A DNA stretch of 64,000 nucleotides from Ornithobacterium rhinotracheale DSM 15997 (GTDB lineage: Bacteria > Bacteroidota > Bacteroidia > Flavobacteriales > Weeksellaceae). Both the position numbers and the translations under genes were made by a program. A model generated the notes under the pieces. It had not been told where the DNA came from, ran no database searches, and saw nothing but the letters and a program-made list of their open reading frames with translations. Positions 26,059 through 26,412 of the stretch are shown here, piece after piece. The stretch covers positions 1,404,501 through 1,468,500 of the forward strand of contig NC_018016.1 of NCBI RefSeq assembly GCF_000265465.1, given 5' to 3'. The stretch's first letter is position 1, and every line of letters begins with the position of its first letter.

Positions 26059-26088
26059 TTGTAGTTTTTAAAACATTTTATAGCTTTG
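26059..26088 (+). promoter_or_regulatory. Near-consensus Bacteroidota promoter
   Basis: TTG at 26059-26061, a 19-nt spacer and TAGCTTTG at 26081-26088 match the Bacteroidota -33/-7 consensus with ideal spacing. Transcription would start near 26095, far from any credible coding start. Confidence 0.75.
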
Positions 26089-26177
26089 CGGCAATTCTAT
26101 GAAACAGTGTGTGCTACATATAATGAATTGTGATAAGTTTAACATCTTTTTCTTGTTTATCTCGAGAAAAAGTGTAA

Positions 26178-26208
26178 ACACACACACACACACACACACA
26201 CACACACA
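26178..26208. repeat. (AC)15 dinucleotide microsatellite
   Basis: Thirty-one bases of uninterrupted AC. Tracts this long are rare in bacteria and are slippage-prone. It lies outside any credible gene, between two pairing partners: GTGTGTG at 26107-26113 and TGTGCGTGT at 26216-26224. Confidence 0.97.
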
Positions 26209-26337
26209 GTATAATTGTGCGTGTATAGTTTACTTTCTACGATTTGCATTTGCAAGTAGTTTCCCATTCATTTTAAAGATAAAAAACAGTGTTGCTAGCT
26301 TATGGCTAGCTACACTATATTGTATCCATAAAATAAA

Positions 26338-26369
26338 GCCAAAGTTCCGTTTAGGAGCTTTGGCATTTT
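26338..26369 (+). terminator. Terminator of the candidate small RNA
   Basis: An 11-bp stem (26338-26348 with 26354-26364, one G-T pair), loop GTTTA, then ATTTTT. Confidence 0.88.
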
Positions 26370-26412
26370 TGTTATGTACATCTTTTTATTCCCTAATAGA
26401 GAGATGTTTTTG

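Follow-up and report, generated by a model that had tools for sequence, protein, structure and literature searches.

The question raised by this locus is what a short region of Ornithobacterium rhinotracheale DSM 15997, with a promoter, a run of AC dinucleotides and a terminator, does ahead of a cluster of surface-protein genes. In the window (the whole 64,000-nt stretch of DNA that was analysed), the original prediction read it as a small RNA of about 275 nt with phase-variable folding. We consider it likely, instead, that the feature is a phase-variable leader-peptide attenuator, the 5' leader of a surface-protein operon. This is drawn from comparison among genomes, in which we found a multicopy family, a conserved reading frame, stop codons that depend on the phase, compensatory changes in a congener and differences in tract length.

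The leader in the window

The promoter, whose TTG, 19-nt spacer and TAGCTTTG box can be read directly just as predicted, is of the Bacteroidota type, and this layout is conserved in 14 of the 16 copies of the source genome. The ATG of the leader ORF lies 10 nt downstream of the -7 box, and the AC tract, present as predicted, begins at leader codon 27. With the 15 units sequenced, the phase is open and the ORF runs on until its TAA is placed within the loop of terminator T2, while the stops of the two closed phases stand at +7 and +21 after the tract. The end of the ORF is thus inside T2 and not at a gene start, 97 nt before the first gene of the operon (Table 1). The claim that the region holds no credible ORF is therefore not confirmed, since this ORF continues through T1 and its frame is conserved across the family.

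Table 1. Features of the leader and of the genes behind it (positions in the window).
Feature	Position	Strand	Remarks
Promoter	26059-26088	+	-33 TTG 26059-26061; 19-nt spacer; -7 box TAGCTTTG 26081-26088; read directly
Leader ORF, open phase as sequenced (predicted ON)	26099-26596	+	165 codons; stop TAA 26594-26596; spans T1
Pre-tract core	26150-26177	+	ends GTGTAA; conserved in register across Bacteroidota clusters
(AC)15 tract	26178-26207	+	encodes Thr-His repeats; starts 79 nt after the ATG
Stop codons of the two closed phases	26212-26228	+	TAA 26212-26214; TAG 26226-26228
Hairpin GTGTTGCTAGC...GCTAGCTACAC	26289-26315	+	without T-run; within leader ORF
Terminator T1	26338-26371	+	stem 26338-26364 of 11 bp with 5-nt loop, then ATTTTTG; within leader ORF
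Third hairpin TTTTGCAGTG..CACTGTAAAA, then TACTTCTTTT	26408-26432	+	
Terminator T2	26573-26617	+	14-bp stem, 11-nt loop with the leader TAA; hairpin 26573-26611 followed by T7
Operon gene 1	26694-27356	+	secreted 220-aa protein, no family
Operon gene 2	27381-27761	+	secreted 126-aa protein, no family
Operon gene 3	27796-29529	+	secreted 577-aa protein with FISUMP-like (PF09603) region, below curated cut-off
Operon gene 4	29555-30322	+	HU-DNA_bdg + DUF4469 protein; probably the operon end

The intrinsic terminator that was predicted to close the small RNA is present as T1. The end of the unit at 26370 has to be revised, because the conserved sequence extends beyond it up to T2, which is stronger (-22.7 kcal/mol) and lies directly upstream of the surface-protein operon. 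The unit as a whole belongs to a repeat with many copies. A 280-nt segment of the window folds at -83.5 kcal/mol, against -52.7 +/- 4.9 kcal/mol in shuffles (z = -6.3), and in this predicted fold part of the AC tract is paired with GTGCGTGT. As a fold of the window, the suggested pairing of the tract can stand; as a general mechanism slipping in steps of 2 nt it was rejected, since most of the 16 copies carry unrelated sequence after the tract (AATTATATACCTTATAATATAG or similar). As far as the aligned copies tell, the conserved feature is the logic of the reading frame and not the pairing. A search of the window against Rfam gave no family, and for the product of the leader ORF no protein family was found. 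The gene of a VIT1-family protein (25292-26005, same strand) adjoins the leader upstream and lies outside the repeat.

Copies in the source genome

By sequence search and pattern, 16 full copies of the 312-nt stretch were located in its own 2.4-Mb genome (76-93% identity, E from 1e-62 to 1e-161), and four diverged AC leaders bring the total to about 20. By exact pattern, all 16 of the 16 tracts of (AC)>=6 in this genome sit in such leaders. On its 5' side the repeat begins with the promoter, and the DNA upstream of the promoter varies among the copies. In all 16 full copies the ATG follows the -7 box by 9-10 nt, which leaves a 5' UTR of a few nucleotides at most, and the distance from ATG to tract is exactly 79 nt, while the tract itself ranges from 4 to 28 units of 2 nt, a unit that is not a multiple of 3.

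When each ORF was extended with n, n+1 and n+2 AC units, exactly one phase was open in every full copy (16/16), giving 140-171 codons and passing T1, whereas the closed phases stop 7-22 nt past the tract, about 100 nt short of T1. In all 16, therefore, it depends on the number of repeat units whether the terminator is reached or the ORF is cut off ahead of it. For 14 of the 16 copies the end of the open ORF falls in the interval from 6 nt before T2 (L017, L018, L020 and L029) to just beyond T2; the two exceptions, L022 and L026, have it 44 nt upstream of T2, which counts against an attenuator. Between the tract and the third hairpin the copies differ by five indels, of 6, 9, 12, 18 and 36 nt, all of them multiples of 3, and gaps of 1-2 nt are confined to the last ~150 nt. 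The ratio pN/pS is 0.41 before the tract and 0.64 after it, only mildly below 1, which also speaks against the attenuator; such weak constraint at the protein level is, however, as expected if translatability outweighs the sequence of the peptide.

Between the repeat and the first gene, every one of the 16 full copies, the window's included, has an intrinsic terminator, although not every relative does. For T2 in the source genome, 99.2% of cells are paired, with 2 compensated pairs (9 variants). On the other side, the T-run behind T1 is weak in many copies (TTTATGTTTAT), a further point against attenuation.

Some copies deserve a separate mention. In L030 and L031 (at ~2059.1 kb and ~1308.7 kb), one phase fuses the leader in frame, through the terminator, to a secreted protein, as ORFs of 453 and 451 codons, respectively. 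L029 (~893.0 kb) has an interrupted tract, ACACACACGCACACAC, with an opposite-strand 257-aa ORF downstream in place of a surface gene, and was perhaps disrupted by insertion. The first gene of L020-L023 and L026 lies at least 900 nt past the tract. The stretch of L025 from T2 to the first gene holds two occurrences of a GC-rich hairpin sequence, at +500 and +794 past the tract, with a spacing of 294 nt.

Tract length and phase states

Two pairs of copies show no difference in the 600 nt that follow the tract and yet differ in tract length, the window copy (n = 15) from L015 (n = 4) and L022 (n = 20) from L026 (n = 24); among related genomes, loci whose flanks match were sequenced with 17/16/11 and 22/14 units. 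From these pairs it would appear that the tract changes by slippage, and phase variation by tract slippage ahead of a surface-protein cluster, which was part of the original prediction, seems well supported by such comparisons.

As sequenced, the phase is open in the window copy and in 4 of the 15 other full copies. Sequenced copies are ON in 10/51 and 6/15 cases (P = 0.02 and 0.03), so they are OFF more often than counting of phases predicts, and this counts against an attenuator; one possible reason is a cost of expression in culture. The tracts of L035-L037 (congener G001) are shortened to 3-4 units and all their leader ORFs are closed as sequenced, with no long phase in L036 and L037, so that these three are apparently decayed or locked OFF.

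Congeners and wider Bacteroidota

Of the tracts of (AC)>=6 in the congeners, 3/3 sit in leaders in each of G001 and G002, and 11/12 in G003 (11 looked at). The G003 leader is mostly diverged, and still its 11 tract-bearing copies have one long phase (123-336 codons) while the other phases stop at +7 and +24. The hairpin of T1 type in G003 lies inside the ORF and has kept all its pairs, five of them with compensatory changes, with 100% of cells paired, compared with 92.8% in shuffles.

When GTGTAAACACACACACAC was searched for by exact match in 84,980 species, each represented by one genome, 117 stretches were returned, 115 of them in Bacteroidota, including Riemerella, Bergeyella, Weeksellaceae, Prevotella, Bacteroides, Phocaeicola, Alistipes, Odoribacter, Parabacteroides and others. 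The two remaining matches, L082 (a Desulfosporosinus MAG) and L162 (a Comamonadaceae MAG), were discarded as chance, having six AC units without the TTTGG core or a promoter-linked leader ORF. Together with the loci of the genus, the species scan yields 116 distinct loci in 27 sequence clusters. The search motif closes one frame and leaves two for an ORF entering the tract; an ATG-bearing open ORF is found in frame 1 only at 102/116 loci, and frame 1 is used at 90 of the 91 loci with a -7 box no more than 40 nt upstream of the ATG.

A strong terminator lies within 300 nt at 73/116 loci, between the stops of the closed and open phases. At all of these (73/73, vs 27.3 expected from shuffles), one (58 loci) or two (15 loci) of the three phases reach the terminator. 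Counted per cluster, with the member with the farthest terminator used, this is 14/14 vs 7.2 expected (probability product 1.8e-7), a statistic that is not fully independent because the clusters are homologous. Two sets of leaders count against the attenuator here: no strong terminator was detected by the finder used in Bergeyella and in many leaders of R. columbina, and in Bergeyella L063 and L149 all three phases are long.

The pre-tract core is 28 nt long, with a consensus of about AATTTGGn4TnnCnRAAnnTGTGTAA. Among the 27 cluster representatives, G stands at -23 in 24 and TTTG at -26 in 17, other offsets reaching at most 3 except -9, which overlaps the search pattern. Since the core is in register outside the search pattern, the loci are homologous and not convergent, and the clusters are therefore no independent origins. 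The distribution is patchy, with the module in 14/296 genomes of the window's family, and a stricter core pattern matched only the source genome among 148 genomes of the phylum, which suggests that the module, rather than being common in the phylum, is found mainly in Weeksellaceae and in some host-associated Bacteroidales. The single match in viral_contigs, L172, has a leader that resembles that of R. columbina and gives no sign that the switch is borne by phages.

Proposed mechanism and alternative explanations

In the mechanism that we propose, transcription would start a few nucleotides before the ATG at 26099 and ribosomes would load immediately. Replication slippage would add or remove AC units and shift the frame after the tract. 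In two of the three phases the ribosome would halt no more than ~20 nt past the tract, so that T1 and T2 could form and transcription would end before the operon (OFF). In the third phase it would pass T1 and reach T2, where the stop codon lies in the loop or a few nucleotides upstream, and by holding both hairpins open it would allow RNA polymerase to enter the surface-protein genes (ON). As the window copy is in the open phase, it is predicted to be ON. The leader ORF stands behind its own promoter and upstream of a surface operon, as in the pil1 leader of Streptococcus gallolyticus, where repeat number, leader ATG, inserted stops and the terminator were tested experimentally (Danne et al. 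2014, PMC3894217); mechanisms of this class have been described in S. gallolyticus and in a close relative (PMC3894217). Since the anatomy of the leader is that of pil1, the most economical reading, by analogy, is the same mechanism, with T1 and T2 covered by ribosomes in one phase and terminating transcription in the others. Translation of the leader ORF, termination in vivo and the switching of expression are what we infer in this way.

The same tract and leader ORF could also act without intrinsic terminators, if the block in the closed phase were due to Rho-dependent polarity, to lost translational coupling with the first gene, or to both. This is unlikely: in the window the ORF ends inside T2 and well before the first gene, and the reading agrees poorly with the 73 of 116 loci at which a strong intrinsic terminator separates the closed-phase and open-phase stops and with the compensatory changes in the G003 terminators. 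What lends it some weight are the leaders of Bergeyella and many of R. columbina, in which strong terminators are absent, the open ORF of Riemerella, which ends a few nucleotides before the first gene, the Alistipes locus L091, whose leader stop overlaps the ATG of the gene, and the in-frame fusions of L030 and L031. Leaders without strong terminators, or with an open ORF that abuts, overlaps or fuses with the first gene, thus suggest that Rho polarity or coupling may add to intrinsic termination, or replace it, in some lineages. A stand-alone small RNA of ~275 nt, with a fold tuned by the length of the tract, would account for the promoter and T1 on the two sides of the region, for the fold with z = -6.3 and for the pairing with GTGCGTGT, and in the OFF phase a short transcript with its 3' end at T1 or T2 would indeed be produced. 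We nevertheless reject this reading as highly improbable, because a frame-conserved ORF spans the region, the indels are in frame and the conserved sequence reaches T2, past the proposed 3' end; in addition, the pairing partner is absent in most copies, no Rfam family was found, and nearly all copies are 5' leaders preceding co-oriented protein operons. The comparisons favour translation of the overlapping ORF, the outcome that the original prediction had itself named as speaking against a small RNA.

If the ORF is translated, its product might be a functional phase-variable protein with only an incidental effect downstream, as the open phase of 140-171 codons, the pN/pS below 1 before the tract and the short conserved block there could indicate. 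We give this very little credence, since the protein belongs to no family, the clusters have unrelated peptides after the tract but share the frame logic, the ends of the ORF follow T2, and the ORF holds terminator hairpins with compensated pairs. The alternating Thr and His codons of the tract bring to mind a classical amino-acid attenuator in which ribosomes stall when histidine or threonine is scarce, the his and thr leader peptides being rich in those residues. Such an attenuator is barely conceivable here: the genes downstream encode adhesins, pili, HU proteins and injection systems and not biosynthesis, no conserved antiterminator is present near the tract, the stall site would be ~130 nt from T1, and the length of the tract varies freely.

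Comparison with known systems

Several known systems share single elements with the proposed attenuator. In Haemophilus and Neisseria, slippage of repeats inside surface-protein genes shifts the frame (translational phase variation), so the repeat lies within the effector gene, whereas here it lies in an upstream leader ORF that would control transcription. In attenuators of the trp and his type, translation of a leader peptide controls an intrinsic terminator and responds to amino-acid supply via alternative hairpins, while here control would come from a shift of the reading frame that is inherited. For Bacteroidota, phase variation is commonly ascribed to DNA inversions, and the invertible promoters of Bacteroides give heritable ON/OFF states of surface structures through inversion by a recombinase; slippage of a repeat, in contrast, needs no recombinase.

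The closest likeness is to Pil1/Pil3 of S. gallolyticus (PMC3894217): ahead of a surface operon, a leader ORF contains a repeat whose unit length is no multiple of 3, the frame sets whether the ribosome reaches the terminator, and the ON state comes from ribosome coverage. The repeat there is GCAGA, in another phylum, and here it is the AC dinucleotide; the 5' UTR is very short here and the ORF spans two terminators over ~400 nt; and instead of two pilus loci there are ~20 copies per genome with several kinds of target. The likeness claimed here is one of working and not of common descent, as the two were compared by description only and no shared sequence was noticed.

A 2026 paper on O. hominis, presumably of the same genus, speaks with regard to FISUMP genes (the same kind of target) of a “putative phase variation mechanism”, which its main text leaves unspecified, naming no repeat, leader, frame or terminator; possibly it is the same element. 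Leader peptides and attenuation are unmentioned in a 2025 review of phase variation, and in the open-licence literature we came upon no account of a leader attenuator with an AC tract in Bacteroidota. As far as the searchable literature goes, the family of AC-tract leaders, its multiplicity per genome, its pre-tract core and the range of its targets, which takes in pili, HU proteins and contractile injection systems, appear to be undescribed.

With moderate confidence, we propose that the Bacteroidota possess, in one homologous AC switch (the 28-nt core followed by (AC)n, with the frame fixed), a phase-variation module not described before, used as a plug-in leader before FISUMP adhesins, type V pili, HU-type nucleoid proteins and contractile injection systems that gives up to ~20 independent ON/OFF attenuators per cell. 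If this is true, several Bacteroidota of birds, other animals and the gut would have a second, slippage-based system of phase variation, and the design of Pil1 would be extended from one streptococcal case to a recurrent one. From tract length modulo 3, the ON or OFF state of each locus could be predicted in any accurately sequenced genome, some 20 independent switches in one bacterium would explain many combinations of expression of large sets of FISUMP adhesins, and pili and contractile injection systems would come under heritable bet-hedging.

Genes downstream of the leaders

The third gene of the operon in the window scores 28.6 bits against PF09603 (E = 2e-6), under the curated cut-off of 33.9, and is also under the cut-off for TIGR02145 (E = 1.2e-5), and we therefore call it FISUMP-like only. 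In a Pfam run on 80 downstream proteins across the loci, Fib_succ_major was counted 7 times, Mfa_like_1, DUF3575 and HU-HIG 6 times each, Pvc16_N 3 times, and Mfa2 and the phage-type tail sheath twice each; other matches included leucine-rich repeats, collagen-like and OmpA proteins. The kinds of target are thus FISUMP adhesins, type V pili, HU proteins and contractile injection systems.

Leaders before genes of type V pili (Mfa_like_1, Mfa2 and DUF3575) were seen at L110, L083, L157, L090 and other loci of Bacteroidales. At several of them two of the three phases reach the terminator, which should make ON commoner by chance. The sheath genes belong to L062, a MAG of Prevotellaceae UBA711, and, by resemblance of the translated start, to the Alistipes MAG L091; with L136, another Alistipes MAG, these loci have an AC leader before genes like those of contractile injection systems (phage-type tail sheath, Pvc16_N). 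In L091 it is the TGA of the open-phase leader that overlaps the ATG of the first gene. These injection machines may therefore be phase-variable.

A second class of leader, in which the ATG lies 8 nt before the tract and another frame is used (MIKHTHTH.. or MFKHTHTH..), comprises L032, L033, L044-L048 and L053; these leaders stand mostly upstream of HU-HIG genes and have a strong terminator ~60 nt past the tract.
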